From positions 1 through 35,177 of IMG/VR virus record IMGVR_UViG_3300028800_000223: DNA of 35,177 nucleotides; one strand, 5' to 3'. Made by a program: the position numbers and the translations under genes. The DNA comes from a virus. The notes under the pieces were generated by a model. It worked only from the letters and a program-made list of their open reading frames with translations. It had not been told where the DNA came from and made no database searches. Of the stretch, positions 6,316 to 35,036 are shown piece after piece; position 1 is the first letter of the stretch; each line of letters starts with the position of its first letter.

Positions 6316-6324
6316 TTCGACCTT
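6316..6324 (-). promoter_or_regulatory. AAGGTCGAA leader motif, 24 nt before start at 6291
   Basis: The minus strand carries AAGGTCGAA exactly 24 nt before ATG. The bases in between contain no G. This is one of five identical copies that all precede start codons by 20-26 nt; see the leader finding. Confidence 0.7.
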
Positions 6325-6376
6325 TTGTCTTACCTTAACTAATGCCTCATTTTGGGCGTTTTGGCAAGGAGCGCTA

Positions 6377-6900
6377 CTACTTATTCCTGCGCTTGGATTC
6401 CTCGGCTTCTTCTTGCATCATGCTGAGGATCACGTCGATGAACCATTTCGGCTGGGACTGGAATTGCTCCCAATCCCATTTCATCTCGCGGCAGACGAGC
6501 GCCGCGACCATGGCGGGCTTGAGCTCGGCGCGACCGAGGGTGAAGAAACTGCGCCAGATCTGTGATACTTCACCCTCTAAAAATTTCCGTCTGCGAGGCC
6601 TTTGACCTCGTTCAGGATGGCCGTGTATTCGGTGACAGGAAGGTCCTGCAACCGCTCCGCGACGTTATCCGCAGAGTTATCGAGCGATAGGACTGCCGCT
6701 TCTACGAGCTTCACGTTGCGCTGAATTCCGATGAGGAGAGAAAGGCGCGGATTCTTGTCGTCCGCGGAGATCTCCTGCGACTTGAAAAGCTCGGAGAGCA
6801 CGTTGTTCACCTCGCGCGCGGTGAGATACTCCTTGACGACGACGGTGTGACCGAGCGGAGTGGTGATCTCTCGCGTTGGCCGGGTTGTTAATTCTGACAT
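6377..6900 (-). CDS. Tail assembly chaperone fusion (GT-type), made by -1 frameshift
   Basis: A minus-one shift at 6586-6580 joins the 107-residue zero-frame protein to 67 further residues, giving about 174 residues. The downstream part begins LEGEVSQIWRSFF and contains a typical T-like domain: conserved Trp/Phe, Leu-rich helices and a charged EEAEESKRRNK end. It has no start codon near its beginning and opens exactly at the slippery site, so it makes sense only as a frameshift extension. The position between tail tube and tape measure is the classic one for lambda G/GT. The fusion would bind the tape measure and recruit tube subunits while being absent from the virion. Confidence 0.85.
6577..6900 (-). 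CDS. Tail assembly chaperone, zero-frame product (G-type)
   Basis: This 107-residue protein ends at TAG (6579-6577), immediately after the slippery heptamer. It starts MSELTTRPTREITTPLGHTV, consistent with a short beta-hairpin followed by helices (VNNVLSELFKSQ). It is the shorter of two tail chaperones expected from one gene. The ATG has a perfect AAGGTCGAA motif 24 nt upstream and a 26-nt G-free leader. It follows the tail tube gene directly. Confidence 0.85.
   Translation of the reverse strand: MSELTTRPTREITTPLGHTVVVKEYLTAREVNNVLSELFKSQEISADDKNPRLSLLIGIQRNVKLVEAAVLSLDNSADNVAERLQDLPVTEYTAILNEVKGLADGNF
6580..6586 (-). other. Programmed -1 ribosomal frameshift site A-AAT-TTT
   Basis: On the minus strand the zero frame reads GGA AAT TTT TAG. 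The heptamer A AAT TTT fits X-XXY-YYZ exactly. Slipping one base back gives AAA TTT and continues TTA GAG GGT into an open frame of 67 codons that ends at 6377. The zero-frame stop directly behind the site would favour pausing. Confidence 0.85.
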
Positions 6901-6924
6901 TATGGTGAGGATTTTGATTTATGG

Positions 6925-6933
6925 TTCGACCTT
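6925..6933 (-). promoter_or_regulatory. AAGGTCGAA leader motif, 24 nt before start at 6900
   Basis: This is a perfect copy of the nonamer, overlapping the stop codon of the tail tube gene (TAA followed by GG). Twenty-four bases lie between it and the ATG, none of them G. Confidence 0.7.
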
Positions 6934-7930
6934 AGTAGCTGGATACAGTATTCGTGAGCACTGTAGTGATCATTGCGCTGTCGGCAAGCTTGTACGTTGC
7001 CTTGAACTTGACGGTCTGGTAAACGAGGTCTTTCACCTTGATCGGGCGGCTGAGCTCAGTGAAGTAGACCTGGTTGAGCGTGACTTTGAGCTCCGGGTTC
7101 GTCGAGACGCCGAGCGTGACATCGGTGTTCTTGATGTCCACGAGCATGGCCTGGCCGACGTTAGGGGTCGCGAGAAACACGGTCTTGAAGTCGGTATTGT
7201 TCTGGTACACGGCCTCAAGTTGTCCCTCCACCTTGAACTCCTTATTGAGGAAGTCCGCGGGTGCGACGCTGCCCAATACCTCCTGGTCCTCAATGTTCTC
7301 GTCAACTGTGAGCTTGAACGACTTTAAGGCGATTGCGGTAGCACCGGAAAGTCCGGCGATGGCCGTTGCGTACTTGAAGATCATGTACTGCGGGATGAAG
7401 CGATTCTCGTTGACGATCGCCGGCGTGAATGCCGACTGCGCGGCGCCTTTTTGGGCGCGGGCGGAGAATGAGAGCGTGACGAACTTTTTCAACTCGACAT
7501 CAACCTCCAACTTATGCACGACGCCGTTCGCGTGCGAGTAATCCACTCCGGTGAGCGGGTCATGGATGAAGAAGGTGAGCGACTGGTGCTGCGCGGATTC
7601 GCCAACGGTGAACGTGTGGTCATAGACCACCGATTCGCCGGCGTGCGTCGTGTGCGCATAGCTGCCGAAGAGCGAATAGAACAGTGGGCCGGCGCTTTGG
7701 TCGGTGAGCGGACACTTGAACGTGCCATCCGCGTAGTTCTTGACGCGGTACTGTGTGATGGAGTCCTCAATAACGCCTATTGCCTGGTCGGCGGTGACGT
7801 TATCTGCCTTCTCATCGAAGCTGAGATCGTCGAACGGCGACCAATATGTTGCGGCAGATACGGCGGTCCCGCGGGTGGTCTCCTTTGCGAATCCCCAGTT
7901 GAATAGTCTTCCAATTCCTTTTACTGACAT
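6932..7930 (-). CDS. Major tail tube protein
   Basis: This 332-residue beta-rich protein has an N-terminus GRLFNWGFAKETTRGTAVSA that is typical of phage tail tube proteins (Phage_tube family). Further on it contains GPLFYSLFGSYA and FFIHDPLTGVDYSHANG. The gene precedes the frameshifted chaperone and tape measure. It should polymerise as hexameric rings to form the non-contractile tube; no sheath gene is seen, which argues for a siphovirus. The start ATG lies 2 nt after the upstream stop and has an AAGGTCGAA motif 26 nt before it, inside the upstream coding sequence. Confidence 0.85.
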   Translation of the reverse strand: MSVKGIGRLFNWGFAKETTRGTAVSAATYWSPFDDLSFDEKADNVTADQAIGVIEDSITQYRVKNYADGTFKCPLTDQSAGPLFYSLFGSYAHTTHAGESVVYDHTFTVGESAQHQSLTFFIHDPLTGVDYSHANGVVHKLEVDVELKKFVTLSFSARAQKGAAQSAFTPAIVNENRFIPQYMIFKYATAIAGLSGATAIALKSFKLTVDENIEDQEVLGSVAPADFLNKEFKVEGQLEAVYQNNTDFKTVFLATPNVGQAMLVDIKNTDVTLGVSTNPELKVTLNQVYFTELSRPIKVKDLVYQTVKFKATYKLADSAMITTVLTNTVSSY

Positions 7931-7932
7931 GG

Positions 7933-8178
7933 TTATTCGTTATTGGTTTCTTTTGCTTCGACCTTTTCATCCGGTTGCACCGGGACTCGTTTGTCGAGAT
8001 AGATCTTCTCCGCCTCTTCCTTATTGCTCGCGACGACGCAAATGGCCTGATAGCCGTTGGCCGCCGGATAGAAGTATTCGTTCAATATCACTGAGACCGC
8101 TTTGAGCGATGTCGGCTGCGGGATCTGCTTATTGTCCGCATCATCGATCATCTTGTTTTGTGTTTTTGGTATATCCAC
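7933..8178 (-). CDS. Small hypothetical protein in tail operon
   Basis: An 81-residue protein starting at GTG (8178); an internal ATG at codon 10 is an alternative start. It is predicted alpha/beta with ICVVASNKEEAEKIYLD in the middle and a charged, flexible C-terminus EKVEAKETNNE. The DNA encoding the VEA of this tail contains the AAGGTCGAA motif of the next gene, so the end of the protein may be shaped by that signal. Family unknown. Its place between tail completion and tail tube suggests a minor tail or assembly factor. Confidence 0.65.
   Translation of the reverse strand: MDIPKTQNKMIDDADNKQIPQPTSLKAVSVILNEYFYPAANGYQAICVVASNKEEAEKIYLDKRVPVQPDEKVEAKETNNE
7957..7965 (-). promoter_or_regulatory. 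AAGGTCGAA leader motif, 26 nt before start at 7930
   Basis: A perfect copy of the nonamer inside the 3' end of the preceding coding sequence, 26 nt before the tail tube start. Its presence in coding DNA argues that the signal is selected rather than an accident of spacer sequence. Confidence 0.65.
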
Positions 8179-8190
8179 GATTATGGTTGA

Positions 8191-8661
8191 TTAGTTTATT
8201 TGTACGCCGGCAGGGACGAGCTGCCTGGCCTTGAAAGTGACGTAAAAAACGACATACGTCACGCTGTTCGAACTGATCGGCCCCGGCGGTTCGAGAATGG
8301 CCGGCATGACCGCGCCGTTCGCCGTTCCTTGCAAGGTTGCATCGGCGTCGAACACTGCGCACACGTTATCCACAAGGCCCGCGAGATAGGTTGGATCGCT
8401 CGAAGGCATATTTTCAGGCGTGGTGACAACCATGATGTACCAGGTATATTCGCGGAGATTGTTCGCTTGATCCTCGAACTCCGAACTGTTGAGCGTCGGG
8501 GGAATGACCACCGCAGAAGGGAATCCGGACCAATTGCGATCGAGCGGATTGACCTTCGTAAGGTCGTCCACGATCACAGCTTTGAGAGTCCCGCCATCTA
8601 CGAGCGTTTGAAGGTCGGCGAGAATCGCGTTCATCTGAGCCTGTGAGGGAGTGTTAGGCAT
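8191..8661 (-). CDS. Tail terminator / completion-like protein
   Basis: This 156-residue alpha/beta protein lies between an HK97 gp10-like protein and the tail tube, the usual place of the tail terminator. Its start overlaps the preceding stop by 8 nt. It begins with a helix (MNAILADLQTLVDGG) followed by strands, with REYTWYIMVVTT in the centre. Such order fits the fold of gpU/gp17-type terminators, which bind the end of the tube and join it to the head. I do not recognise a specific signature, so the assignment is positional. Confidence 0.6.
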   Translation of the reverse strand: MPNTPSQAQMNAILADLQTLVDGGTLKAVIVDDLTKVNPLDRNWSGFPSAVVIPPTLNSSEFEDQANNLREYTWYIMVVTTPENMPSSDPTYLAGLVDNVCAVFDADATLQGTANGAVMPAILEPPGPISSNSVTYVVFYVTFKARQLVPAGVQIN

Positions 8662-9124
8662 TGGCTTGTGCGGCGATCGCGCCGGCTATTTTGTCGAGTG
8701 CCTGACCGAAGAGAATGTCCACTGCCGGCTGGGCCGCGTCGATGATACGTTCCATGAACGGGTTCGCTTTCGTGCCGGGATGATGGACGAGCATACCGAA
8801 TATCTCGCCCGTCTTCGCATTGGCGAGTACGCGCTTGTTGATCGGGCGAATCTCATGCGGCGGGGTGCCAAACTCGACGTAGGGCGCATATGCCGCCTTT
8901 GGATACCAGCGCGCCTGGAGATTGCCGACATCGAAGGCCCAGTTCTGCGAAAGGTAGCCGGTACGGATCGGAACAGTGCTCGCGTTGGTGAACTTCGCCA
9001 TGACCGCCTGGGAAGCAACGACGGCGCTCTGCACGATGGGCGTGGCGATCGCGGGATAAGAGGCAAGCGCCGCTTGGAGTTGCTGGAGATTCACTATTGA
9101 TACTTTGAACTGGGGATCTGCCAT
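8654..9124 (-). CDS. HK97 gp10-like head-tail joining / tail protein
   Basis: This 156-residue protein contains YAPYVEFGTPPHEIRP and HHPGTKANPFM, the characteristic motifs of HK97 gp10-type minor tail proteins. The chosen start (MADPQF) lies 4 nt after the upstream stop. A longer frame to 9385 would only read through the neighbour. N-terminal helices (LQQLQAALASYP, VVASQAVMAKF) precede the conserved core. It acts at the neck during head-tail joining. Confidence 0.82.
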   Translation of the reverse strand: MADPQFKVSIVNLQQLQAALASYPAIATPIVQSAVVASQAVMAKFTNASTVPIRTGYLSQNWAFDVGNLQARWYPKAAYAPYVEFGTPPHEIRPINKRVLANAKTGEIFGMLVHHPGTKANPFMERIIDAAQPAVDILFGQALDKIAGAIAAQANA

Positions 9125-9128
9125 TGGA

Positions 9129-9992
9129 TTAAATGATGATGCGACGATAATTATCAACGACGTTTTGGTCGAACGCATCGAGGCGATCCCTCCACGAAGT
9201 CGTCGCTCCGGCAATGTTCTCGCTTGATTTTCCGTCGAGCAAGCGGCGTTTGAAAATACGGACCACGAGATTCTCGCAAAGGTTCGCGAGATCGTCGGGG
9301 AGAAGATGCGTTGAGCTATTGCCGGCGTTCGGCCAGTCCACCGGATAGCCGGCGACGTAGGTCGCGCGGAGCATATTGGACGCAAGGCGCGGCATAACGC
9401 CGTAGACGCGCACGATGCCGCTATATCCCTGCTGTTCGAGTTCGAACTGGTCTTGGATGAAGGTAGTCCAACTCGGGCTGGAAGGCGTTCCTGCGCGATA
9501 TTGGAAGGAAATAAGGCCGCTTACTTCAAGCACTGCGCCGGTCTGGGTGACGCTGGCCGGGAGGGAGAGCGTAATGGTCGTTCCGGTGATGCCGGCGACG
9601 GTCGTACCCTGGGGAACGACGCCTTGGGCGAGCACCGGCATTCCTGATACGATGCCAGTTACCGGCGAGCAGTTCGTGACGGCGTTAGATCCGGCGATCG
9701 TGTTTCCGGAAACGATGAGATAGGCAACGGGCGCGTTCCGCAATGGAAGATATATCGCCTGCTTTCCGATCACGCTATAGACCTCGTTCGTGTAAGTCTT
9801 CTGGATGAAATGGCCGTCGTTCGGGAAGCGGTCAAGGCCGCTCTTGCCGCACTCGCGCTCAATGAAGCTGGTGGCGGCGTTGATCATGCGCATAAGCACC
9901 GCGTCGGAATCGTCGAGCGTGATCTGGAGACGGTCCTTGACCCGTGCCAATGTCGTCAACGCATATGGTGAAACTTGTTCTTTTTGTGTCAT
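9129..9992 (-). CDS. Head-tail connector (gp6-like) with inserted repeat domain
   Basis: The protein has 287 residues. The N-terminal part (TTLARVKDRLQITLDDSDAV, then MINAATSFIERECG) is the helical fold of gp6-like connector proteins. The C-terminal part (DLANLCENLVVRIFKRRL) returns to that fold. Between them, at about residues 95-158, lies an inserted beta-domain of the type GNT..GSNAVT..S...GI..GMPV..GV.PQGTTV that recurs at almost the same position in the neighbouring protein at 10065-10715. Gp6-like proteins are normally about 100 residues, so the insertion more than doubles the length. The start ATG has an 18-nt G-free leader. Confidence 0.78.
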   Translation of the reverse strand: MTQKEQVSPYALTTLARVKDRLQITLDDSDAVLMRMINAATSFIERECGKSGLDRFPNDGHFIQKTYTNEVYSVIGKQAIYLPLRNAPVAYLIVSGNTIAGSNAVTNCSPVTGIVSGMPVLAQGVVPQGTTVAGITGTTITLSLPASVTQTGAVLEVSGLISFQYRAGTPSSPSWTTFIQDQFELEQQGYSGIVRVYGVMPRLASNMLRATYVAGYPVDWPNAGNSSTHLLPDDLANLCENLVVRIFKRRLLDGKSSENIAGATTSWRDRLDAFDQNVVDNYRRIII

Positions 9993-10018
9993 GTGAATTG
10001 AGGAATAGATCCTCGCGT

Positions 10019-10048: not shown

Positions 10049-10064
10049 GGAGCGAAGATTCGAA

Positions 10065-10715: not shown

Positions 10716-10882
10716 TGAATTAGATGATGGCCCCTACTTTCCTTCGACTTTAATCGGAAAGGACGAGAGTAAATCTCGATGGGCGGTTAATGTGGAGATC
10801 CCCGCCCGCTCCGGATTCCGCCGAGGAATGGGCGAAATACCGGAACGGACAGAAGCGTACGCGAACTAAGGACTCCTATGCA

Positions 10883-12103
10883 CTAGGAGACCGACGTGAA
10901 GATCACGGTGAACGCTTTGGGGAGAACGGTCACGAGCGCATGGCGGTGCTTGTAGACAATTCCGCTCTGATCGGACAGGGCAATTTCCTTGCCACCGAAC
11001 GAACCAGACTGGAAGTTGCCGACGCGCATATCGCCCTTGTCGCCGAACGCCACTGCTTTCAAATTTCCGAAGATCATGAAAGCGGTATTGGTCTGCGTTG
11101 CTACGGTCGTGGCAGGGAGCCAGCGGTTGGTATAGACCGGATAGCCGCCCATATAGCCCGCAGGCTTGATGGGACCACCTCCCGGTTCATCCTTCAGCTC
11201 GTTACCTGCACCGCTCAAGAAGAGGAACGGAAGTCCGGAGGTCGAGGCCAATTCGGCGCGAATCGCTGCCCAGACGGTGCGATGGCAATACCATGCAGCA
11301 CCATCCAAGATCGACTCTTCCAAAGTGGCGATGACGTTTGCCGCGTCCGTTACGGGGTTGAACTTCGCGTACGTAGTTCCGCCTGTGGCGAGCGTGTACG
11401 TGTTCGTTCCCGTGACGGTCAAGATGCCCTGGAAAGGACCCGGAGCGGACGACTGCCCGCCGATGAATCCCTGCTGGTCGATCATGTTCGCGAGCGCCTC
11501 GCCTGCCATGGCAAGAAGCCAATCGGCGAGCTGCACGGACGCATCCTGCAAGAGGTCGTTGCCGACCGTGAATGCAAGCTGCCACTTGCGGGCGATGAGC
11601 ACTGCCTGACCAAAGGTCAAGCCGGTCACCGTACCCGGAAGGTCAACGCCAATGTAGGAGCCGGTAAGGAAGTTGCCGGTGTAGTTGGGGATGCCCAACT
11701 CGTCGGTCTTCATCGGCCACTTCTGGCACTGCTTCATGATCGTTCCAACGGAGGCCGCGATACGGAGGATCGCTGCTGCTACTTCGGGTTCAACCAAATA
11801 GCCGCCGCGATTGTCCTGCTCCTCGATAAGCGCCTCGTTCGCCTTGGTGACGAGACGGGCCTGATCGTGGAAGCCGCGATACGCCGCTTTGACCTGGCTC
11901 GCAAACTTGAGTTTCTGGTCCGTGTCCAAGCCGCTCACATCGTTGCCCCGGAGGGAGCGCTCGACGATCATGGCTTCGACAACCTTGCGTGCGTTCTTTG
12001 TAGAGACCTCTTCCATTGTGGGGATGAGGGTTTTCTCCATGAAGTCGTTGAAGCCCGTCTTTACGGTTTCCTCAACGGTCTTCACGATTGTTTCTGTATT
12101 CAC
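10883..12103 (-). CDS. Major capsid protein, HK97 fold
   Basis: This 406-residue protein has the HK97 layout. A helical, charged N-terminal about 95 residues is the likely delta domain removed by the protease. The core begins at about residue 98 with NRGGYLVEPEVAAAILRI, and later come GDKGDMRVGNFQSGSFGG and RHALVTVLPKAF. The start codon is GTG at 12103, and the leader lacks a Shine-Dalgarno site. It follows the protease/scaffold gene by 23 nt. The 167-nt space behind the gene (10716-10882) holds small inverted repeats, including CTTTCC/GGAAAG and GGGCGG/CCGCCC, but no clear terminator. A long open frame on the opposite strand across this gene is a shadow. Confidence 0.9.
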   Translation of the reverse strand: MNTETIVKTVEETVKTGFNDFMEKTLIPTMEEVSTKNARKVVEAMIVERSLRGNDVSGLDTDQKLKFASQVKAAYRGFHDQARLVTKANEALIEEQDNRGGYLVEPEVAAAILRIAASVGTIMKQCQKWPMKTDELGIPNYTGNFLTGSYIGVDLPGTVTGLTFGQAVLIARKWQLAFTVGNDLLQDASVQLADWLLAMAGEALANMIDQQGFIGGQSSAPGPFQGILTVTGTNTYTLATGGTTYAKFNPVTDAANVIATLEESILDGAAWYCHRTVWAAIRAELASTSGLPFLFLSGAGNELKDEPGGGPIKPAGYMGGYPVYTNRWLPATTVATQTNTAFMIFGNLKAVAFGDKGDMRVGNFQSGSFGGKEIALSDQSGIVYKHRHALVTVLPKAFTVIFTSVS

Positions 12104-12126
12104 TTTTTGAAGCTATTGAATGTAGA

Positions 12127-13194
12127 TCAATTGAACTTCCGACCCGGATACTTCTTTCTCAACGTCTCGTTGATTTGTCGAAGACCGTCTTCGGAAGCAG
12201 ATTTGATCTGCCTCGCGAGCCGCTGCACAAGAAGGTAGGAGTCCAATTCGGACATCAACTCCTTCTTGGAAGCCGGCGCTCCCGAGGTCCTCGACCTTGA
12301 GTTCAGGGCCTTCTCATCCCCATCCGGCTCTTCGCCGTTGGGCTTTTTGGAAGGTTCCTCCCCTTCGCCACCACCTGAGGATGCGAAATCCTTCAGGGCC
12401 GCGATAACAACGTCAGATGATTTCCCGTGCTCCGTGTGATGATCTTCGATGGCTTTGATAATCTCCTTAATCTTGTCCTTGTTCGCTGCGGAAATGGCGC
12501 GGCCGGCTTTGCCGATGAGAGGACGAATGGTGCTGTCCGGATAGCGTTTGGTCTCAGTGTTCTTCATGAGCGCAACGGCTTCGTCAAGCAGGTCGTCATA
12601 ATCTTGCACAGCCGCTTTCTCGTCGAGGTACGCGGAGATGAACGCGGAGAAGACGGAATATGCCTTGTCAATGCGCTTATACTTTGCCTGCATTTCGGCA
12701 TCCTCCGTCATCTCGTCAGCCACCGCGCCCTTCTTCTTGGCTGCCTTCTGTTCCTCTGTTTCGCCTTCGCCCATGCGATCGGCTTCCGCCTTACACATAT
12801 CCATATGCGCCTGCTGATGGCGATCTAATTCGTCGCCGGCAGACTTCGTAAACTCTTCGAGCGCCTTCGCCTTGGCATCGTCGTCCGTGGCTTCGCCATA
12901 CGCTTTGCCAAACTCGACGATCGCTTTCTTGACGTTCTCCACGTGCGTCTCGTGCGCGACCCCGAACGCATCCTTGAACTCATCGATGCTTTTCACACCC
13001 TTTTGGTTCTCCGGATCCAAGGACGCATAATTGTCGTCGATGGCCTTCATGCACGCTTCCTTGTGGCGGCTCTGTTCGCCGTCGATGGATTCTGTCAACG
13101 TATCGATAGACTTGAACTCATCGATGCTCTTCCCTACCGCTTCGGCGTGGTCCTTGTGCTCTGCCTTTAGTTTTTTTGTAAGTTCGTTTTCCAT
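12127..13194 (-). CDS. Possible internally initiated scaffolding protein
   Basis: An in-frame ATG at codon 265 of the protease gene (MENELTKK) lies just where the charged scaffold region starts. It is preceded by an A/C-rich stretch with AACCACC and no structure-forming G run, as in other starts here. The product would be 355 residues, without the protease. Phages such as lambda make a nested scaffold in the same way (Nu3 inside C). This is an inference; the start could be unused. Confidence 0.4.
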   Translation of the reverse strand: MENELTKKLKAEHKDHAEAVGKSIDEFKSIDTLTESIDGEQSRHKEACMKAIDDNYASLDPENQKGVKSIDEFKDAFGVAHETHVENVKKAIVEFGKAYGEATDDDAKAKALEEFTKSAGDELDRHQQAHMDMCKAEADRMGEGETEEQKAAKKKGAVADEMTEDAEMQAKYKRIDKAYSVFSAFISAYLDEKAAVQDYDDLLDEAVALMKNTETKRYPDSTIRPLIGKAGRAISAANKDKIKEIIKAIEDHHTEHGKSSDVVIAALKDFASSGGGEGEEPSKKPNGEEPDGDEKALNSRSRTSGAPASKKELMSELDSYLLVQRLARQIKSASEDGLRQINETLRKKYPGRKFN

Positions 13195-13986
13195 GGTGGT
13201 TGATTTGTCTTGTACGGGAACGCATACGAGTCTGCCAGGATTCTCGGAATCTTCTGCGAGTGTGCCTGGGGTCCCGTCCTCCAGCTCGCAGTGGTCGCCT
13301 ACCTCGGACGACTTCTGCAATTTCTCTTTGCCCGGCGGAGAAAGTTCGCTGTTAACTCCCCCATCGCCACCGTGTATGGTGGAATCCGCTTCTTTTCCTT
13401 CAGAGGCCGTTTTACGGTCTGAGGCGCGTTGGTGGGGGAGCGGGTTTGTCTCATAGAAGAATCCTTTCGTGATGAGCTCCTGCGTCGATACGCCAAGAAC
13501 GCCCACTTGGCGCAATGAAAGCGCGTAGCGCCCCGCGGGAACCGGACAGAAGCTCATTTCAAGGAGTTCGCGCGTGCCGTCGTCGTTCTGGATATATCCG
13601 GGCGAGACAGTGCGGAGGATCTTCTCCTGGTACAGCGCGCACGCCATATCCGCTTCCGGGTTGATCCCCGCCTGGGCGAATTTGCCGGTCGCGATCGTTT
13701 TGTCGCCATCGATCTTGATGTCAGTGACGATCCCGATCGGGAAGCTGGAATAGTTATGCGCCCACAGGACGACGGGGTTCATGTCGTAGTACTTGAAGTC
13801 CCATCCGGCCTGGTCGAGGGCGTCGCCCTGGCGGTCCTCATCCGACGTGCTCATCACAACCTCAAACGTCCGGTCATCGCCGGACGCTTTCACTTTCGAA
13901 ACAAAATCGGAAGTCTCCTGGCTCGCAAGACGGGCCTTGAGAGTCTCCGCTATGTCCTTCGAAAATTGTTTGAGGTTTTCATTCAT
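12127..13986 (-). CDS. Prohead serine protease fused to a scaffold-like domain
   Basis: The protein has 619 residues. Residues about 25-165 are an HK97-type (S78) prohead protease: His77 in WAHNYSSFPIG and Ser128 in RTVSPGYI fit the catalytic His and Ser. The remaining about 450 residues are highly charged and helical (Glu, Lys, Asp, Ala) with repeated KSIDEFK and His-containing helices, as expected of a scaffold. HK97-like proteases are usually about 200 residues, so this is a protease-scaffold fusion. It lies directly before the capsid gene. The C-terminus is basic (RKKYPGRKFN), typical for capsid-binding scaffold ends. It should guide shell assembly, then cleave the scaffold and the capsid delta domain. 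Confidence 0.85.
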   Translation of the reverse strand: MNENLKQFSKDIAETLKARLASQETSDFVSKVKASGDDRTFEVVMSTSDEDRQGDALDQAGWDFKYYDMNPVVLWAHNYSSFPIGIVTDIKIDGDKTIATGKFAQAGINPEADMACALYQEKILRTVSPGYIQNDDGTRELLEMSFCPVPAGRYALSLRQVGVLGVSTQELITKGFFYETNPLPHQRASDRKTASEGKEADSTIHGGDGGVNSELSPPGKEKLQKSSEVGDHCELEDGTPGTLAEDSENPGRLVCVPVQDKSTTMENELTKKLKAEHKDHAEAVGKSIDEFKSIDTLTESIDGEQSRHKEACMKAIDDNYASLDPENQKGVKSIDEFKDAFGVAHETHVENVKKAIVEFGKAYGEATDDDAKAKALEEFTKSAGDELDRHQQAHMDMCKAEADRMGEGETEEQKAAKKKGAVADEMTEDAEMQAKYKRIDKAYSVFSAFISAYLDEKAAVQDYDDLLDEAVALMKNTETKRYPDSTIRPLIGKAGRAISAANKDKIKEIIKAIEDHHTEHGKSSDVVIAALKDFASSGGGEGEEPSKKPNGEEPDGDEKALNSRSRTSGAPASKKELMSELDSYLLVQRLARQIKSASEDGLRQINETLRKKYPGRKFN

Positions 13987-23622: not shown

Positions 23623-24315
23623 ATGGAAATGTTCATTGCGGGCGATTTGAGCTATGGGGGAATCAGCGTCGTAACGATTTTGAGCGCGGGCATTGGGGCG
23701 TACATCGGTGCCTACCTCAAGAAAAAGGGCGAGAATCTAGCGACCAAAGAAGACTTTGAGAAATTGCTCGTCGCTCAGAAGGCGACAACGGAGGCCACGA
23801 AGTCAATCGAAGCTCGAATCTCAAAAGAGGTCTGGGATAGGAAGAGGGAGTGGGAATTTAAACGTGAAGTCCTCTTGGAAGGTGCTCGCTCAATTGCGGA
23901 TTTTCTTGCATCGATCATGCGGCTCAATGCTATTAGTGCGACAAAAAACGGTGCTGCCCCGGATGAGGAAGCAGCCTACCTCATAGCGCTCAGTCAGAAC
24001 GAAACGAGCGCTCTCGATGCAGTGAATAAGGCGTCCTACAGCTTGCAGCGTGCGCAACTTGTCCTGTGTATCGTGAGCGGTAAAGAGACACAAATCGCAT
24101 TTGTCAAATTGGAGAAGCTTTTTAAGCAAATTGCAGTGAAGATTGTAGATGGTGATACGAAGTACTTTGACAGTGTCTATCCCCAACTCAAGAAGTATGG
24201 TTCCAATCTGACGCTGGCTATTCGCAGGGAATTGGGATTCGACGATTCGGACTTTACGTCTCTATCCAATGAATTTTCGGCAGTTCGAGCCCCTGGTTCG
24301 CCAGCCCCTGAATGA
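23623..24315 (+). CDS. Membrane-anchored coiled-coil protein (moron-like)
   Basis: A plus-strand gene amid minus-strand late genes. Starting at ATG 23623 (MEMFIAG) it has 230 residues; ATG 23629 or TTG 23602 are alternatives. A membrane segment (about 12-33, ISVVTILSAGIGAYIGAYL) is followed by KKKGENLATKEDFEKLL, a widespread signature of small bacterial membrane proteins, and then long helices. It has a GGGAAAAGGGG purine-rich site before the start, unlike the minus-strand genes, and a possible -10 TATGAT at 23594. Its 3' end overlaps the large terminase gene tail to tail by 62 nt. It looks like independently expressed cargo, perhaps affecting host or superinfecting phage; function unknown. 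Confidence 0.7.
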   Translation: MEMFIAGDLSYGGISVVTILSAGIGAYIGAYLKKKGENLATKEDFEKLLVAQKATTEATKSIEARISKEVWDRKREWEFKREVLLEGARSIADFLASIMRLNAISATKNGAAPDEEAAYLIALSQNETSALDAVNKASYSLQRAQLVLCIVSGKETQIAFVKLEKLFKQIAVKIVDGDTKYFDSVYPQLKKYGSNLTLAIRRELGFDDSDFTSLSNEFSAVRAPGSPAPE

Positions 24316-25693
24316 GGTACACGCACGCGTCGTTCAAGTCGTCATGCGACTCGATGCCGAGATTAAATATCTGCCCGAGCAGTTCCTCGCATCCGGTCCG
24401 CGGGAAGAGCACTGTCCCGTTCCTGATATACGGCGCGACGACTTGCAACCGTGCTCGCTTGTCGCCCTGCGGCTTCATCGGCACGATGGGTAGCATCGCG
24501 CGTTCCATCTCCTGGATCGCCGCCTTCTGATACGCCACATCCTCCACGAAGAACAGGTTCGCCCCGCCCATCTCGCCGGGGATCGCCCGTACGCGCTTCA
24601 ATAGCTCATGGAACGTGACGTGCTCGTTGTAGGGGTTGGGGCGTATGAATATCTTTGGCGCGTCCTCCACGTACAGCACCTCGCCGCTCACGATCGCCGT
24701 GTAGTCCGCGCCTTCCTTTTGCGATATGGCAAGGTCGATGCCGTGCCCTTTCATCGCGGCAACGCCGTTCGGCCTGGCATCGTAGTAATGAATATCTTCC
24801 GGCCTGATGACCGCCTCGTCGTCCGATACGATCTTCAGCAGCATCTCGCGCTGCCATGCGATCGGCCCCATGTCGCGTTCTTTGTCCTTGAGCGACTGCT
24901 CCGTGGGATACATCGCCGGCCATGTGCATTTGCCATCCTTGTCGATGAGTGGAAACTCAAGACATGTGAAGCCGGTGCCTGGCGCGCGGAGGCGCGATAA
25001 GAGCGCGTCCATGTGGAGCAGGTTGCCAATGACGACCAGCTTGCCCTTGCGGGCGTCCATGCCCGGCATGATCTCGGAATGCAGCCATCGATCGGTCTTA
25101 TCGCGGTTCTCCTTCGTGCGGACCCATTCGCCGTCCTCCGGGTCGTCCACGACGATGAGCTTTGGCCTGTGCTGGAGATGACGAAGGCCACGCACCTTCT
25201 GGCCACGGGATCGCGCAAGGATGCGCACGCCGTTCGATAGGACGATATTCTGCTTCTGCCATTCCTCGCCCTCGCCCTGGAGCGAGAAATCTTCGATGAC
25301 GGTGCCTTTGATCTCACCGTAGTCCTGCTTGATGAGCTGGTTCGTTTCGAGCTCGTGCTTGATGGCAGAGATGTTGAGCGTCGCCTGGCGACTGGAATCG
25401 GCGACGAGGATGATGAACGGGTACTTTTCGGGGTATTCGAGCGCGGCCCACAAAGGGAGCGCCAAGCTGCCGAACGTGCTTTTGCCCGATCCGCGGAATC
25501 CGAGGATGAGCACGCGGCGCTCGTCCTCGCTCTCTAGCGCGTGGATAAGCTGTGGATGGAACAGCGCGGGCGGGTCGGTAAAATAGCCGGAAAGGTAGAT
25601 CAGCGAAAAACCGAGCAGCGTTTTACGGCTCTCTTTGCGGGCTTCGAAGGTCTCGAAAAGACTAGGACTGAATTGTAGTGCCTGGTGTTGCAT
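24254..25693 (-). CDS. terL: Terminase large subunit
   Basis: The 479-residue packaging motor has the full motif set. Walker A is GFRGSGKST (65-73) and Walker B LIVVDDPED (179-187). The nuclease acidic residues are Asp320 in GIDLA, Glu384/Asp385 in FVEDVAY, and Asp451/Asp452/Asp455 in SHDDLND. The ATPase translocates DNA through the portal and the RNase H-like C-domain cuts concatemers. The start overlaps the small subunit gene by 32 nt. The 3' end overlaps the convergent plus-strand gene by 62 nt, so its last codons are also coding on the other strand. No mechanism (cos or pac) can be read directly. Confidence 0.95.
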   Translation of the reverse strand: MQHQALQFSPSLFETFEARKESRKTLLGFSLIYLSGYFTDPPALFHPQLIHALESEDERRVLILGFRGSGKSTFGSLALPLWAALEYPEKYPFIILVADSSRQATLNISAIKHELETNQLIKQDYGEIKGTVIEDFSLQGEGEEWQKQNIVLSNGVRILARSRGQKVRGLRHLQHRPKLIVVDDPEDGEWVRTKENRDKTDRWLHSEIMPGMDARKGKLVVIGNLLHMDALLSRLRAPGTGFTCLEFPLIDKDGKCTWPAMYPTEQSLKDKERDMGPIAWQREMLLKIVSDDEAVIRPEDIHYYDARPNGVAAMKGHGIDLAISQKEGADYTAIVSGEVLYVEDAPKIFIRPNPYNEHVTFHELLKRVRAIPGEMGGANLFFVEDVAYQKAAIQEMERAMLPIVPMKPQGDKRARLQVVAPYIRNGTVLFPRTGCEELLGQIFNLGIESHDDLNDACVYLIQGLANQGLELPKIHWIET

Positions 25694-28143: not shown

Positions 28144-28536
28144 TTACTTGAGCCGGCGCACGCTCTCCGCGAGATTGCGATGCGACGTGGCAATCTTCCG
28201 GAAATACTCGACGGTCTTCATGTGCTCCTCGATCTCGCCTTCGAGCTGCTTCACGTATTGGCGCTTGCTGTCCGCTAACTTCTCCGCGTCTTTGCGCTCC
28301 TGGTCCGCCTTGTACTTCTCCTGACCTTCGAGCGCCTTATAGCTCTCGGCCTCCATGCCGGCGGCGATGGACTGGTCGATCGCTTCCGCATCCGCGGTGA
28401 GCTGGGCGATCGTAGCACGCTTATCATCGGCGTTCTGGGCCGAGATGCGCGCGCCGAGTTCGTTCAGTTCCGCCTCCACGGTCTCTTTCCACAGGTAGCG
28501 CCGTTTGGCATAGAACCTTGCGATGAATTGAAACAT
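28144..28536 (-). CDS. Coiled-coil hypothetical protein
   Basis: A 130-residue, almost fully helical protein rich in Glu, Lys, Ala and Gln, with a coiled-coil from about 20 to 120 (ALEGQEKYKADQERKDAEKL, VKQLEGEIEEHMKTVEYF). The start (MFQFIARFYAKRRYLW) is chosen because a perfect AAGGTCGAA lies 21 nt upstream, with a 23-nt G-free leader. The open frame further upstream overlaps a small membrane protein gene. Function unknown. Confidence 0.65.
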   Translation of the reverse strand: MFQFIARFYAKRRYLWKETVEAELNELGARISAQNADDKRATIAQLTADAEAIDQSIAAGMEAESYKALEGQEKYKADQERKDAEKLADSKRQYVKQLEGEIEEHMKTVEYFRKIATSHRNLAESVRRLK

Positions 28537-28557: not shown

Positions 28558-28566
28558 TTCGACCTT
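28558..28566 (-). promoter_or_regulatory. AAGGTCGAA leader motif, 21 nt before start at 28536
   Basis: Perfect copy of the nonamer in the 40-nt gap after the 34-residue membrane protein gene, followed by a run without G up to the ATG. Confidence 0.7.
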
Positions 28567-30441: not shown

Positions 30442-30758
30442 AAAAGTTGTAATGGATTTGCTTCGACTTTCTTCTCTTCCCTCGCCGGCGGCAACACGGG
30501 ATGCTTGGCTCTTAATGACCACGCGGTTCCGCTTGTCGCTTTGCAGGTGCGGCGTTCAACCTTGAATACAAGCCCCATTTTTATCAGCTCTCCCGTGCGG
30601 GGCGTTACGCGGTTCACCGGCCATCCGAGATGCGCGGCGATCTCTGCGTTCGTCGCGTCCGAGAAGAAGCGGAGCGCGTCCAGCACTTCCTTCTGTTTTG
30701 CGCCGAGATCCTTCGTGGCGACGCTGTATGCCCAGAGTGATGTGTCGGCGCTTCCCAT
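30438..30758 (-). CDS. Winged helix-turn-helix DNA-binding protein
   Basis: The protein has 106 residues. Residues about 20-85 have a winged helix pattern: helix KQKEVLDALRFFSD, then NAEIAAHLGW-PVNRVTPRTGELIKMGLV as helix-turn-helix and a wing (VERRTCKATSGTAWSLR). Likely a transcription regulator of this phage. It precedes the 85-residue gene (ATGA) and follows the zinc-knuckle gene by 6 nt. Its C-terminal end EEKKVEANPLQLL resembles other VEA tails here, which are encoded by the leader motif. Confidence 0.7.
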   Translation of the reverse strand: MGSADTSLWAYSVATKDLGAKQKEVLDALRFFSDATNAEIAAHLGWPVNRVTPRTGELIKMGLVFKVERRTCKATSGTAWSLRAKHPVLPPAREEKKVEANPLQLL

Positions 30759-30764
30759 GGTCGT

Positions 30765-31355
30765 CTATAGGATCTCGCCCTCCTCCTCTTCTTCGGCCTT
30801 TCCGCTGCTCGATGCGATAGACGGGTCCCAAAGCTCATTCACCTTGCTGATCCTGATCTTGAGCTTGCTTGCAATGACGAGGGAATCCAACCCGTCCTGC
30901 TGTAGACCATGCACTGCCGCTGCGAGTTCTTCATCTGTGCGCGTTTCAATTGCCGGAGCCTGTTCGACATTTTTCTCAGGATTATTCTCCGGGCATGTCT
31001 TGCGGTTATGCCCTACCTTGCCGCACGTTCCGCATCCTGAACGCGCGCCCTTTTTCTTCACTAAGGACTTATGCGGCGCTTTCCTTTTTCGTTCCGGGCA
31101 GTGCCAGGCGCTATGGCCTTCCTCACCACACTTCCCGCACGTACCTTTCTTATAACCCTCTTTGGGAACTTGTTTGCGGTCTTGCTTCTTTGGCTTGGTC
31201 TTCTTCCGCAATGGGAGCGGTGGCACGATGTGCGCCGTAGCGACGATAGTACCGTTGTCAACGAGCGCCTCAAACGAATCGAACTCCGGGACCTTCTCGA
31301 AAAGGTTATCTCCGGATACTGCGTACTGCTTGCCTGCGATTTGATAGATCTTCAT
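30765..31355 (-). CDS. Double CCHC zinc-knuckle protein
   Basis: The protein has 196 residues. Two perfect C-x2-C-x4-H-x4-C knuckles are present: Cys73, Cys76, His81, Cys86 (CGKCGEEGHSAWHC) and Cys108, Cys111, His116, Cys121 (CGTCGKVGHNRKTC), embedded in Lys/Arg-rich linkers. Such knuckles bind single-stranded nucleic acid in retroviral nucleocapsid and eukaryotic RNA proteins and are rare in phages. An N-terminal about 45-residue domain (MKIYQIAGKQYAVSGDNLFE) and a C-terminal helical segment (DEELAAAVHGLQQDGLDSLV) with a poly-Glu end complete it. The start is directly behind the ParB-like gene, so it belongs to that operon. It likely binds ssDNA or RNA. Confidence 0.8.
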   Translation of the reverse strand: MKIYQIAGKQYAVSGDNLFEKVPEFDSFEALVDNGTIVATAHIVPPLPLRKKTKPKKQDRKQVPKEGYKKGTCGKCGEEGHSAWHCPERKRKAPHKSLVKKKGARSGCGTCGKVGHNRKTCPENNPEKNVEQAPAIETRTDEELAAAVHGLQQDGLDSLVIASKLKIRISKVNELWDPSIASSSGKAEEEEEGEIL

Positions 31356-31357
31356 GG

Positions 31358-32752
31358 CTAAAGCATTTTAATGATTTTCTTGCCATCCCAACCAGACGAA
31401 ATGAAACCTTCGAAGACCAGCTGAAGGCGTTGCTCGTCCGTCATCTCCTTCGCCTTCGCCCGAAGTGTCGCCTGATAGGAAATCGCCGGTTTGTTCTGGT
31501 AAGAGACTTTTACACGCAGCACCGGCCACCCGCGCCCCTTCACCACGGACCGGATACCGTCTTCACGGATCTCTCGGATCATGATCTCAACGAGTGCGTT
31601 GATCGCCTTTGAGTTGATCGGAAGCTTCACTTTTTTGGCCGCGTCCTCGATCAGTTTCGCTTCACGTTTTAACTTGGCCTCTTCGCGAGCGACGGCTGCT
31701 TTACGAGCAGCGATCTCTTTCGGAGTGGCCTTGTAGACCGAGGCTGCACGGGCGCCGTGAACCTTGCATCCCTTATCGGTGCAGATTCGGATCGTTTCGC
31801 CCAGGCCGTCATCGAGATCGCCGGCGACAATCAAAGCGGAATGCTCGCTCGGGCATTTTTCCTTTCCGGTGAGCTTGCGATATTCGTCATAGCGCACGAC
31901 GCCGGCCGGCAACGGAGAAACGTATCCGCCGGCAACGAGCGTGAGCGGGGTTTTCTTCGCGGCAAATTCATTTTTGACAAGCGCAACATGTGCGGCCAGC
32001 TTGCGGGCAAAGCATTTGGGATCGGGGCATTGTCCGGCCTCCTTCTCGTTGAATAGCGTCGTCCCGGTCCTTTTGCTGCACTCGGGGCACGGAGCCATCG
32101 CTGCAACGGTCGCGGCATGATCCTTCCACGGAGGAGCTGAAGAGAGTTTCCGGAACGTGAGCTCTCGAATCCATTCACGAAGTTGCGCGATGTCGTCCTC
32201 ATAATCGATCACGCGCTTCAACGCTTTCTCCTGATCGGCCGTTTCGAGCCGGGCGATGAGCGCGGCGTGGCCCGCAGAGATCTTCCCGGCACGGAACGCT
32301 GACGCCGCCTTGGAGGTGAGATCCGTGAGCGCCAGGCGTCCCCGGACGTATGCGGTACTCTTTCCGGTTTTTATCGCAATCGACTCCACTTCCTGTGCTC
32401 CCTTCTCCATGAGCTCGCGATATGCTTTACCCTCATCGAGAGGATGGACATCGGCGCGCTGGAGATTTTCTATGATCTGCACTTCGCGGGCTTCCGTATC
32501 GGATAGGCTTTGAATGTTCGCCGGGACCTCCGTCAATTGAAGCTTCTGCGCGGCGCGGAACCGGCGGCTGCCGGCGACGACTTCATAGCCCTTCCCGGCC
32601 GGGCGAAGGATCAAGGGAACGATGATGCCCTTTTCCTTGATGCTTGCGACGAGATCGTTGAACTCCGGCCCCTCGAACGATGTGCCACGGGGATTGGTCT
32701 TTGACTCCGCTATTTGCTTTATGCTGACGTTTTGAAAGGTTGATTTATTCAT
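31358..32752 (-). CDS. ParB/Spo0J-like protein with zinc-cluster extension
   Basis: The protein has 464 residues. The ParB N-domain is clear: NPRG (20-23), GYEVVAGSRRFRAA (56-68, CTP-binding GxRR motif), ENLQRADVHPLDEGKAY (95-111). A helix-turn-helix region follows at 122-140. From about residue 235 comes CPECSKRTGT and GQCPDPKCF, a zinc-like cluster, then a long Lys/Ala-rich helical part. No ParA is seen, so partition is not proven; phage ParB-like proteins also act as regulators or nucleases. The start overlaps the SWIM gene by 8 nt. The C-terminal stop lies 2 nt before the zinc-knuckle start. Confidence 0.82.
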   Translation of the reverse strand: MNKSTFQNVSIKQIAESKTNPRGTSFEGPEFNDLVASIKEKGIIVPLILRPAGKGYEVVAGSRRFRAAQKLQLTEVPANIQSLSDTEAREVQIIENLQRADVHPLDEGKAYRELMEKGAQEVESIAIKTGKSTAYVRGRLALTDLTSKAASAFRAGKISAGHAALIARLETADQEKALKRVIDYEDDIAQLREWIRELTFRKLSSAPPWKDHAATVAAMAPCPECSKRTGTTLFNEKEAGQCPDPKCFARKLAAHVALVKNEFAAKKTPLTLVAGGYVSPLPAGVVRYDEYRKLTGKEKCPSEHSALIVAGDLDDGLGETIRICTDKGCKVHGARAASVYKATPKEIAARKAAVAREEAKLKREAKLIEDAAKKVKLPINSKAINALVEIMIREIREDGIRSVVKGRGWPVLRVKVSYQNKPAISYQATLRAKAKEMTDEQRLQLVFEGFISSGWDGKKIIKML

Positions 32753-32957
32753 CAATGCGTTGATTAGTTTTGCGATACCACGGCTTCGCGACGATCTCGT
32801 AGTGATGCACAATATCGTTCTTCGTAAATGGACTGAGCTCGTTCCACACCTCCTCCGCATGATGACAGAGTCCGTGTTGGAAGGTAGCCTTAGGGCAGGT
32901 ACACGTGACGTTCGGGTTCGTCATCGTCCCGCCCCAATAGATCTTCGTCGTATACAC
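32745..32957 (-). CDS. SWIM zinc-finger-like protein
   Basis: About 70 residues from a GTG at 32957; ATG 32924 and upstream starts that overlap the SSB-like gene are alternatives. The Cys19-x-Cys21 ... Cys31-x-His33 pattern (CTCPKATFQHGLCHH) fits the SWIM domain CxCx(n)CxH, a zinc site in DNA- and protein-binding proteins. It lies between SSB-like and ParB-like genes. It may assist replication or recombination. Confidence 0.65.
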   Translation of the reverse strand: MYTTKIYWGGTMTNPNVTCTCPKATFQHGLCHHAEEVWNELSPFTKNDIVHHYEIVAKPWYRKTNQRIDE

Positions 32958-32973
32958 GACATCCGAATTCTTC

Positions 32974-33489
32974 TTAGAACGGAATGTCGTCGATCGAAAT
33001 ATCCTCTCCGCCTCCCAGGCTCGGACGATCTCCTTCACCATCTTGCTCATCGAGTTGTATAGTCGGGATGTGTTCTGCCGACGCTTGGACCGCGACCTTT
33101 GAGATGCGCTTGCCATACTTCCCGTTCTTCAGTTTGAATGCTTCCACAAAGAACTCCTCACCGATCTCAATGTCCTCCAGATCCTCGATAAGGTAATACA
33201 GATTGCCATCCTCGTTCTTAATCGGCATATTCCACTGCTTCTCAACGCCGTTATCGGTGATGACCATCTGGAGCTCCTCCTGCTCCGCGCCGTTGAAGCT
33301 CTTGCCCTTGCCGATCTTCTGTGAAACGATCTTCACCCGATGCTGGCCGTTCGGTACCTCCACATCGATCATCTGGCCGCCGCCGGCGTCAATCTTCTTC
33401 TTGTCCGTGACGCTGAAGAACTGATTCTTATCCGCAATCGCGCCTTTCTCGCGCGCCACCTCCGCCAACTGCTTCGCTAACGTACTCAT
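32974..33489 (-). CDS. Single-stranded DNA-binding-like protein
   Basis: The protein has 171 residues. It ends with an acidic tail and the hydrophobic tip DDIPF, the classic C-terminal hook by which SSB proteins recruit replication partners. The body is beta-rich (HRVKIVSQKIGKG, LQMVITDNGVEKQWNMPI, YYLIEDLEDIEIGEEFFVEAF) and could be an OB-fold. The start follows a 29-nt G-free leader. Alternative: a nonspecific acidic-tailed replication protein of the T7 gp2.5 type, which has a similar hook. Confidence 0.75.
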   Translation of the reverse strand: MSTLAKQLAEVAREKGAIADKNQFFSVTDKKKIDAGGGQMIDVEVPNGQHRVKIVSQKIGKGKSFNGAEQEELQMVITDNGVEKQWNMPIKNEDGNLYYLIEDLEDIEIGEEFFVEAFKLKNGKYGKRISKVAVQASAEHIPTIQLDEQDGEGDRPSLGGGEDISIDDIPF

Positions 33490-33523
33490 GTTTTTGAATG
33501 AATGATTAGGTTTATTTACTACG

Positions 33524-34396
33524 CTACGCTGCCTGCAATTCGCTCACAATTTCGTCTATGAGCTTCCGCACCTTTGCGACCTTTGCCAATGCCTTCTTGC
33601 TTGTGACTTCCGGAAATGGAATTGCTCTAAAGGCGCCGGCGAACGAGTAAAGCTTCTCGGTGTCCGGACGTTCCGCGTCGATCCGCTCGGCTTCGGCCTT
33701 CGCAGCCGCTTCTGCGGCGATGCGCTCATCTTCCTTGCGCTTGGCATCGATCTCGGCCTGGATGCGGGCATCCTCGGCGGCCTTACGCGCGGCTTCCTCG
33801 ACCTCAGCCTTATGCCGTGCATCGCGCTCGGCATCTAACTTCTGCTGTTCGATGGCCTTCTTCTCCGCGTCGATCCGCTCGGCTTCGGCACGCAATGCCC
33901 GTTCCTTCTCTTCCTGCTCGATACGCTGTTGCTCCAGCTTCTTCGCCATGAGCAAATTCAACACCTCGGCGAATGCGGCATCGTCTAACGTGAGCAACTC
34001 GGCTTCGCTGATCTCCGCGCTAACCTCGGCGAGCAGAGCGTTCCGGGCCGGAAGCTTCTCGCGCTGTTCCTTTTCGAACTTAATGTGCGCCTTCTCATCG
34101 TCAATCTTCTTCTGCTCCGCGATAAGATGGTTCTCGACTTCCAAGATCGCCTCAGTAATGCGCTTTGCTTCCGTGTCAACGGCTCGACCATATCTGAGGC
34201 TGTCCTCCTTGAGCTCGACACGCTTCTTCTCGACGTTGACGCGCTCTGCTTTGATAAACAACCGCGCCTCGCGTACCTGCTCGTAACCTTCCACATCATC
34301 CAAGCCCTTGATGGTGAGTGGAAGGAACTCCTTGCGGTACTGCGCAAGCGCCTCGTCCGTCACGCTATATTTGACCAATTCAGTAACACTGTCCAT
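33524..34396 (-). CDS. Coiled-coil phage protein of early region
   Basis: The protein has 290 residues. Residues 1-100 contain PLTIKGLDDVEGYEQVREAR and VEKKRVELKEDSLRYGRAVD, a pattern I recognise in phage proteins that lie near recombination and replication genes. Residues about 150-250 form a continuous Glu/Lys/Arg/Ala coiled-coil. The C-terminal helices (KALAKVAKVRKLIDEIVSEL) follow a linker. It may support recombination or be a structural filament; function unknown. A TTCGACGTT variant of the leader motif lies 30 nt upstream, within the preceding gene. Confidence 0.7.
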   Translation of the reverse strand: MDSVTELVKYSVTDEALAQYRKEFLPLTIKGLDDVEGYEQVREARLFIKAERVNVEKKRVELKEDSLRYGRAVDTEAKRITEAILEVENHLIAEQKKIDDEKAHIKFEKEQREKLPARNALLAEVSAEISEAELLTLDDAAFAEVLNLLMAKKLEQQRIEQEEKERALRAEAERIDAEKKAIEQQKLDAERDARHKAEVEEAARKAAEDARIQAEIDAKRKEDERIAAEAAAKAEAERIDAERPDTEKLYSFAGAFRAIPFPEVTSKKALAKVAKVRKLIDEIVSELQAA

Positions 34397-34408
34397 GAAT
34401 GTAATTTG

Positions 34409-34627
34409 TTATTTATTTTGGGATGCTTCGACGTTTTCCCGTTCGATCTCCTGCAATGCTTCCGCTTTTCTATCAACCTCTCCAATGAACGTGTAAGGAT
34501 GGGACGACCGTCTATTTAATTGGAACTCCGCTTTCATACACGCTTTGAGATTCTCGTTGCGCTCATCCTGCTCTTCCTGTTCGAGCGCAGACTTCCTATT
34601 CGCCATGCCGATTTCTTCCGGAGTCAT
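34409..34627 (-). CDS. Small hypothetical protein
   Basis: A 72-residue charged helical protein with a Gln/Glu-rich first half (SALEQEEQDERNENLKACMK) and a C-terminus ENVEASQNK, again containing a VEA encoded by a leader-motif variant. It starts directly at the stop of the preceding 45-residue gene. Family unknown. Confidence 0.6.
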   Translation of the reverse strand: MTPEEIGMANRKSALEQEEQDERNENLKACMKAEFQLNRRSSHPYTFIGEVDRKAEALQEIERENVEASQNK

Positions 34628-34765
34628 TTAATGTGCTGTCTGATATTCCTCTGACGCGCTTCCGACCATAGCGTCGTACATGTCCTCGATCTCTGCTTCC
34701 GTGGGGACTTCGCCATATCTCATCTGATCATCGGCAAGCACCTCCATTATTTCTTCCTTGCTCAT
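34628..34765 (-). CDS. Acidic mini-protein
   Basis: A 45-residue acidic protein (MSKEEIMEVLADDQMRYGEV, then EIEDMYDAMVGSASEEY). The ATG is preceded by a 26-nt G-free leader and by the hairpin at 34798-34845. The next gene starts directly after its stop. Small acidic helical phage proteins of this kind often inhibit host enzymes, but nothing specific can be said. Confidence 0.65.
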   Translation of the reverse strand: MSKEEIMEVLADDQMRYGEVPTEAEIEDMYDAMVGSASEEYQTAH

Positions 34766-34797
34766 GATGTGTGATTGTTAGGTTTATAGTTCCGATA

Positions 34798-34845
34798 TTT
34801 GAGGGGGAAGAAAAGGCTCTCGTCTTAATCTTCCGCCCCCTCAAA
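34798..34845. other. Strong bulged hairpin with an alternative pairing
   Basis: TTTGAGGGGG (34798-34807) pairs with CCCCCTCAAA (34836-34845), extended beyond a 3-nt bulge by AAGA/TCTT. A mutually exclusive pairing CTCTC/GAGAG brackets its right arm. There is no T-run on the minus strand behind it. It lies between the 50-residue membrane protein and the acidic mini-protein and may act as an attenuator or mRNA end protector. Confidence 0.55.
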
Positions 34846-34854
34846 TGAGAGTCT

Positions 34855-35007
34855 TTATCTATTCCAGGCAAACCATAGAACGGTCGCCACTACTACCGCG
34901 ATTCCTGCGATCACCGACATCTCATAGAGATAGGTGCGAACCGGGTGTTTTGTGCGGGGCTTAAGATATGTCATCTCGGTCCCGGTAACTTCGTAATCGT
35001 TGTACAT
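34855..35007 (-). CDS. Small membrane protein
   Basis: A 50-residue protein. A basic, soluble N-terminus (MYNDYEVTGTEMTYLKPRTK) is followed by a membrane segment (SVIAGIAVVVATVLWFAW, residues 31-48). The start has a perfect AAGGTCGAA motif 20 nt upstream, a 22-nt G-free leader and a promoter-like pair farther up, so it is probably the first gene of this minus-strand block. Family unknown. Confidence 0.7.
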   Translation of the reverse strand: MYNDYEVTGTEMTYLKPRTKHPVRTYLYEMSVIAGIAVVVATVLWFAWNR

Positions 35008-35027
35008 GAATTTGATTAGTTAGTTTA

Positions 35028-35036
35028 TTCGACCTT
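35028..35036 (-). promoter_or_regulatory. AAGGTCGAA leader motif, 20 nt before start at 35007
   Basis: A perfect copy of the nonamer. It lies downstream of the promoter-like pair at 35051-35078, so here it would be part of the transcript, which favours an RNA-level role. Confidence 0.7.

Follow-up and report, generated by a model that had tools for sequence, protein, structure and literature searches.

The published concept nearest to the element described here is the start-associated sequence (SAS), with its extended form (ESAS), of cluster K mycobacteriophages, i.e. a sequence of consensus GGGATAGGAGCCC that has a Shine-Dalgarno (SD)-like core, is located immediately upstream of start codons and has an unproven role (PMC3203893, PMC12699233). 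Two other systems invite comparison, i.e. the stoperators of cluster A mycobacteriophages, which are DNA sites bound by a repressor (PMC9283540, PMC6550527), and the SD-less initiation of Bacteroidota, for which the parts of the published account used here describe a normal anti-SD, leaders with little structure, a scarcity of AUGs around the start and a Kozak-like A at position -3 (PMC6847099). Here, we analysed a viral stretch of 35,177 nucleotides (nt; IMG/VR record IMGVR_UViG_3300028800_000223, in full, hereafter the window), in which the nonamer AAGGTCGAA recurs at a short distance before start codons. The core of this word is AAAGGTCG, corresponding to the eight-letter AAAGGUCG in RNA form.

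Like the SAS, the word is short and asymmetric, stands (nearly always) in one orientation before the starts of many unrelated gene families and is phage-specific. It differs from the SAS in that its core AAAGGTCG contains no SD, in the gap of 15-30 nt to the start codon, in the G-poor linker filling this gap, and in being common to phages with different terminases and base compositions. Given the differences in word, distance and linker, it is not a member of the SAS, but it may work alike.

The genes of the window, mostly read from the minus strand, include packaging, head and tail genes of siphovirus type. AAGGTCGAA occurs five times, exclusively on the minus strand; 0.26 copies were expected (standard deviation 0.46), and none of 100 dinucleotide shuffles reached five. 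The copies precede the start codons at 6291, 6900, 7930, 28536 and 35007 by 24, 24, 26, 21 and 20 nt, respectively, and no SD was found before any of the five genes. These data bear out a preliminary description of the window, which had reported five minus-strand copies at 20-26 nt before starts of SD-less genes. Its claim of G-free linkers holds for four of the five sites, whereas the linker before 7930 contains three G because it is still coding, i.e. the end of the upstream gene. We also agree that the VEA-containing C-termini shared by several upstream proteins are a by-product of the word lying within the upstream coding sequence. The sites and their surroundings are as follows.

35051..35078, minus strand: predicted sigma-70-like promoter 5' of site 1 (consensus match; -35 box at 35078-35073, -10 box at 35056-35051)
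35028..35036, minus strand: AAGGTCGAA site 1; the promoter match TTGCAA-N16-TATTAT ends 14 nt upstream
35008..35027, minus strand: linker of site 1, G-free, 20 nt, to start codon 35007
34855..35007, minus strand: gene for 50 amino acids downstream of site 1
28558..28566, minus strand: AAGGTCGAA site 2, retained in the same-family genes of loci L006 and L037
28537..28557, minus strand: linker of site 2, G-free, 21 nt
28144..28536, minus strand: gene for 130 amino acids downstream of site 2
7957..7965, minus strand: AAGGTCGAA site 3, within the 3' end of gene 7933-8178 (start 8178 or 8151)
7931..7956, minus strand: linker of site 3, 26 nt, three G, coding
6932..7930, minus strand: tail protein gene (phrog_290) downstream of site 3
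6925..6933, minus strand: AAGGTCGAA site 4, sharing bases with the TAA stop codon of gene 6932-7930
6901..6924, minus strand: linker of site 4, G-free, 24 nt
6577..6900, minus strand: gene for 107 amino acids in the tail module, downstream of site 4
6339..6367, minus strand: predicted sigma-70-like promoter 5' of site 5 (TTGCCA-N17-CATTAG; consensus match)
6316..6324, minus strand: AAGGTCGAA site 5
6292..6315, minus strand: linker of site 5, G-free, 24 nt
6154..6291, minus strand: gene for 45 amino acids downstream of site 5, beginning MGIFIGIVLLVLVGVG

The preliminary description had pointed to orthologous starts as the place where its proposal could fail; the word is present at orthologous starts of related phages, being conserved on the gene strand in 22 related genomes and additional fragments. 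For the following counts, genes were called with a simple script, many of the contigs are fragments and mutually related, and identical leaders were removed. For the related phages, a ranking of the 7,842 8-mers located 13-32 nt upstream of starts places AAAGGTCG first, with 86 copies observed versus 9.0 expected, and a substitution scan upstream of starts gave 56 exact copies versus 1.3 expected, changes in the central GTCG leaving almost none. Motif discovery from several unrelated seeds arrived at the same word. In total, 89 genes from 47 protein families carry AAAGGTCG. All 77 start-linked copies or near copies of the related set (at most 60 nt before a predicted start) lie on the gene strand, as do 88 distinct AAGGTCGAA sites, each counted once, versus 13 on the other strand. 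Intergenic copies not linked to a called gene mostly precede, at a similar distance, a small reading frame that had not been called. The word is often located at stop/start junctions, with several copies per genome. In 20 further virus records it was again biased to the gene strand, with few copies of a reversed control word. It is missing from the 8-mer lists obtained for the host and for five control phages, and no enrichment was found in the latter. A text search of the literature for the 8-mer returned 388 papers, and the 20 listed look, judging by their titles, like chance matches in primers and other sequences.

Evidence for selection comes from the tail gene downstream of site 3, where 17 of 21 orthologues keep AAAGGTCG within the coding overlap. 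In these, Lys-Val is always encoded by AAG GTC and the next codon is always GNN, regardless of whether it specifies Gly, Glu, Asp, Ala or Val. Since these nucleotides are fixed though the residue varies, selection acts on the nucleotides, and protein-level conservation as the cause was rejected.

The gap between word and ATG is mostly 15-30 nt and rarely below 15 nt, while the upstream stop codon is anywhere from -44 nt to thousands of nt away. The linker consists of 51 % A, 25 % C, 19 % T and only 5 % G, as compared to 25 % G in the 25 nt 5' of the word. If positions equally far from the ATG are compared, G accounts for 10 % of the bases in the linker versus 31 % upstream of the word, so word and linker behave as one unit. 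Considering that AUG, GUG and UUG all contain G, a G-free linker cannot hold a start codon. The predicted unpaired fraction of the last 20 nt of the leader is 0.69 in the phage versus 0.46 in the host, and the frequency of A in phage leaders is 0.33 at position -3 and 0.41 at position -6.

At the best predicted promoters, the word lies downstream of the promoter. The ten top-scoring matches found 5' of copies combine TTGNNN boxes and spacers of 16-17 nt with -10 boxes of the kind CATAGT, TATACT or TATTAT, and in all of them the -10 box is followed after 6-14 nt by the word, without overlap. The window site at 35028 belongs to these ten, and that at 6316 conforms to the pattern but scores lower. 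The word would thus coincide with the expected transcript start or stand shortly behind it, and is probably transcribed. Extended -10-like boxes, TGCTACGCT and TGCTATAGT, lie around 20-25 nt before several starts, i.e. 2870, 23526 and 26180 in the window and their orthologues; the leaders following them often end in CCCTCC, the reverse of the SD, directly before the ATG.

The window terminase was found in 38 loci of viral contigs, at 45-91 % identity, and also in three Acidobacteria assemblies. In one of these, a prophage occupies positions 116013-168126 of a 232-kilobase contig, between two copies of a 23-base-pair repeat corresponding to the 3' end of tRNA-Met, with an adjoining integrase-like gene and a G+C content of 54-58 % inside a contig of around 62 %. 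The host is therefore an Acidobacterium, and the phage group is temperate (integrase, attachment sites). The terminase is rare in Acidobacteriota, i.e. present in two of 396 genomes at 1e-60 and with high identity only in G001. Among known phages, the first 25 kilobases of the window had no nucleotide match, and the terminase had remote relatives only. On the lysogeny side of the prophage (locus L044, G001:C67:160923-166193), proteins resemble conjugation-type ATPases by eye, and a set including the relative G020 gave TrwB and Replic_Relax matches; judging from these resemblances, a plasmid may have been the source of the module.

In host genes, the SD peak is normal and located at -14 to -8, and the word was found at none of 235 host starts. 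The full element had five matches in 396 Acidobacteriota genomes, one of them in the prophage itself; on these two counts a host-wide start signal in Acidobacteriota was rejected. SD-like motifs precede 7 % of the phage starts versus 36 % in the host, and G makes up 14 % versus 32 % of the last 18 nt before the start. One phage gene family, c24 (located at around 0.85 of the genome and DUF932-like by eye), has a host-type SD in 87 % of its members, while most other families have none, and is perhaps expressed at another stage. At the gene for the terminase large subunit (24254-25693, minus strand), AGGAGG stands directly before the start without any spacer, which is conserved in relatives, and the called start may be wrong.

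The word is not confined to this group. When viral contigs were scanned for the word followed by a G-free stretch and an ATG, the matches listed included AT-rich contigs of 31-40 % G+C with many copies on the gene strand, for example 20 versus 0 on the other strand in G091, 14 versus 0 in G084 and 10 versus 0 in G096. In the AT-rich phages, the same word ranks first of 514 8-mers, and the linker contains 4 % G versus 15 % just 5' of the word. Because these contigs were found through the word, one or two copies in each are due to selection, but selection alone cannot explain 68 start-linked copies versus 3.6 expected. In some AT-rich contigs, terminase, portal or tail genes are common to the contig and the window, with low identity; others have unrelated terminases. 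A middle group with around 55 % terminase identity carries the word on the gene strand with weaker start linkage, and several relatives at 44-46 % terminase identity lack it. A tblastn search for hosts of the AT-rich contigs yielded remote matches only; in G096, there is a repeat protein that we take to resemble repeat proteins of Patescibacteria. The AT-rich relative G091 (locus L264, positions 11025-13304) also carries a run of genes that look, by eye, like QueD, QueE, FolE and QueC, which suggests 7-deazaguanine DNA modification.

We give about even chances to the view that AAAGGUCG, a G-poor and A/C-rich linker of 15-30 nt and the AUG together form an RNA-level, start-associated translation signal of phage messenger RNAs (mRNAs). 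A translation signal is what we infer because the word is anchored to starts, is located just outside the footprint of the initiating ribosome, and is followed by a weakly structured linker free of start codons, in leaders lacking an SD; activation rather than repression, and the existence of a reader, would have to be assumed likewise. The region covered by the ribosome at initiation is well established, and the word lies just outside it. There, the word (AAAGGUCGAA in the RNA) would probably capture an initiating ribosome, or a factor bringing one, and the G-free linker, hardly folding, would leave the AUG as the first usable start. In their lack of an SD, their predicted weak structure, the small number of AUGs close to the start and the normal anti-SD of the host, the leaders with the word resemble the SD-less starts of Bacteroidota; as far as the parts of that account used here go (PMC6847099), they differ from them by the distal, sequence-specific word and in that the host uses the SD and only the phage does not. 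One may speculate further that several unrelated phage lineages share a dedicated, phage-specific start, in which ribosomes would be loaded onto SD-less mRNAs at a distal site, AAAGGUCG, recognised either by a phage factor yet to be found or through a general feature of the ribosome that hosts do not exploit, and with the loaded subunit sliding along the G-poor linker to the first AUG. This fuller scheme we regard as possible, but with the chances clearly against it.

Several observations weigh against a translation signal. The word is absent from around 80 % of the phage starts, the majority of which are without an SD too, so starting does not depend on the word, which would add to a general SD-less mode without replacing it. 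The transcript starts were all predicted from promoter consensus, and two relatives, G011 and G014, have a near copy between the boxes of a likely promoter, a position that would leave it untranscribed. No conserved complement to the word of at least 7 nt was found inside the 16S ribosomal RNA (rRNA) of the host family, and the best word-rRNA duplex (-9.8 kcal/mol) was marginally better than those of permuted words. A scan of 45 non-structural proteins matched 31 families, and the 25 of these that were listed included none with a role in translation or RNA binding; and a profile search found no non-structural family common to all carriers, many of the contigs being partial. Phage tRNAs common to the carriers were not found either.

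The near copies in the promoter spacers of G011 and G014 are the main observation favouring a DNA site, i.e. an asymmetric operator for a phage repressor that would sit in the short gaps of lytic operons and block transcription in the lysogen, as do the stoperators of cluster A mycobacteriophages. The word shares with these its asymmetry, its single orientation with respect to transcription, its repetition along operons, often at stop/start junctions, and its occurrence in a temperate group. Neither the narrow gap before the start codon, with its minimum of around 15 nt, nor a G-poor linker that begins at the word is expected of an operator, and the distance to the upstream stop codon is broad; in addition, there is no overlap with the -10 box at the ten best promoter matches, and no repressor family common to all carriers was found. 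We therefore consider an operator unlikely. Placed at a comparable level is an RNA site that does not promote starts, whether for a translational repressor, for mRNA stability or for processing by an endonuclease. It would agree with a sequence-specific word beside starts and near predicted mRNA 5' ends, and a candidate protein exists in the window (30765-31355, minus strand), with two CCHC zinc knuckles, CGKCGEEGHSAWHC and CGTCGKVGHNRKTC, of the retroviral nucleocapsid pattern, which could bind such RNA. The pattern was matched in roughly half of the more complete relatives, and a Pfam search gave no match for the window protein. Yet the word lies outside the region that a competing repressor must cover, and CCHC proteins are missing in many carriers, including the strong ones G016 and G020, for which reason this protein was also rejected as the reader of the word.

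Much less probable is a promoter element recognised by an RNA polymerase of the phage or by an altered host polymerase. Many genes do have promoter-like boxes at a distance similar to that of the word, i.e. 20-30 nt before the start, but at the best sites ordinary -35 and -10 boxes are correctly placed upstream of the word, no -10-like partner follows it at a fixed spacing, and there is no phage polymerase among the non-structural genes scanned. Least credible of all would be direct pairing with rRNA, i.e. a displaced SD. The host-family 16S tail CACCUCCUUUCU is ordinary and includes the anti-SD, and the purine-rich AAAGG, which the word has in common with the SD upstream of starts, could pair with CCUUU of this tail. 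However, the most invariant part of the word, GTCG (GUCG in the RNA), has no partner in the tail, the spacing of 20-30 nt is far outside the SD range of 5-10 nt, and neither the complement search nor the duplex energies support pairing with 16S or 23S rRNA. The preliminary description had argued for an RNA-level signal and not a promoter; this agrees with the anchoring to starts, the single orientation, the G-poor linker, the nucleotide-level conservation and the probable transcription of the word where a promoter is visible, while the comparison with 16S rRNA that it had suggested gave no convincing complement.

Less of its claim regarding variants with GTCGAA, proposed to lie 20-35 nt before five further starts, can be retained. 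As a class they are not enriched (16 on the minus versus 15 on the plus strand). The copy before 28079 has several G in its gap and receives no support from orthologues, while that before 30441 gains credit from an exact AAAGGTCGAA at the orthologue in G015. For the copies before 15150 and 34396, the case is plausible but weak. Two of the variants are located as follows.

30462..30470, minus strand: variant AAAGTCGAA before start 30441; the orthologue in G015 has the exact AAAGGTCGAA
34427..34435, minus strand: weak variant AACGTCGAA before start 34396, not consistently kept in orthologues

The copy before 10715 belongs to a different element, being the 3' arm of a hairpin-like repeat that is separate from the start word.

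10716..10770, minus strand: hairpin-like repeat CCTTTCCGATTAAAGTCGAAGGAAAG upstream of gene 10715

This repeat is kept in 22 orthologues, with CCTTTCC..GGAAAG in the window and CCCTTCC..GGAAGG in most others, i.e. a paired change from T-A to C-G. The window copy alone folds no better than shuffles, and an Rfam scan of the window matched no known structured RNA.

If the word is translational, phages of an SD-using host carry a start signal of their own, which would provide a convenient entry to two questions, i.e. how SD-less starts are recognised by bacterial ribosomes and by what means phages give their own messages an advantage. Being only eight bases long, highly specific and common to phages of very different base composition, the word is directly testable and, if the proposal is true, would allow better start-site calling in uncultivated phages.

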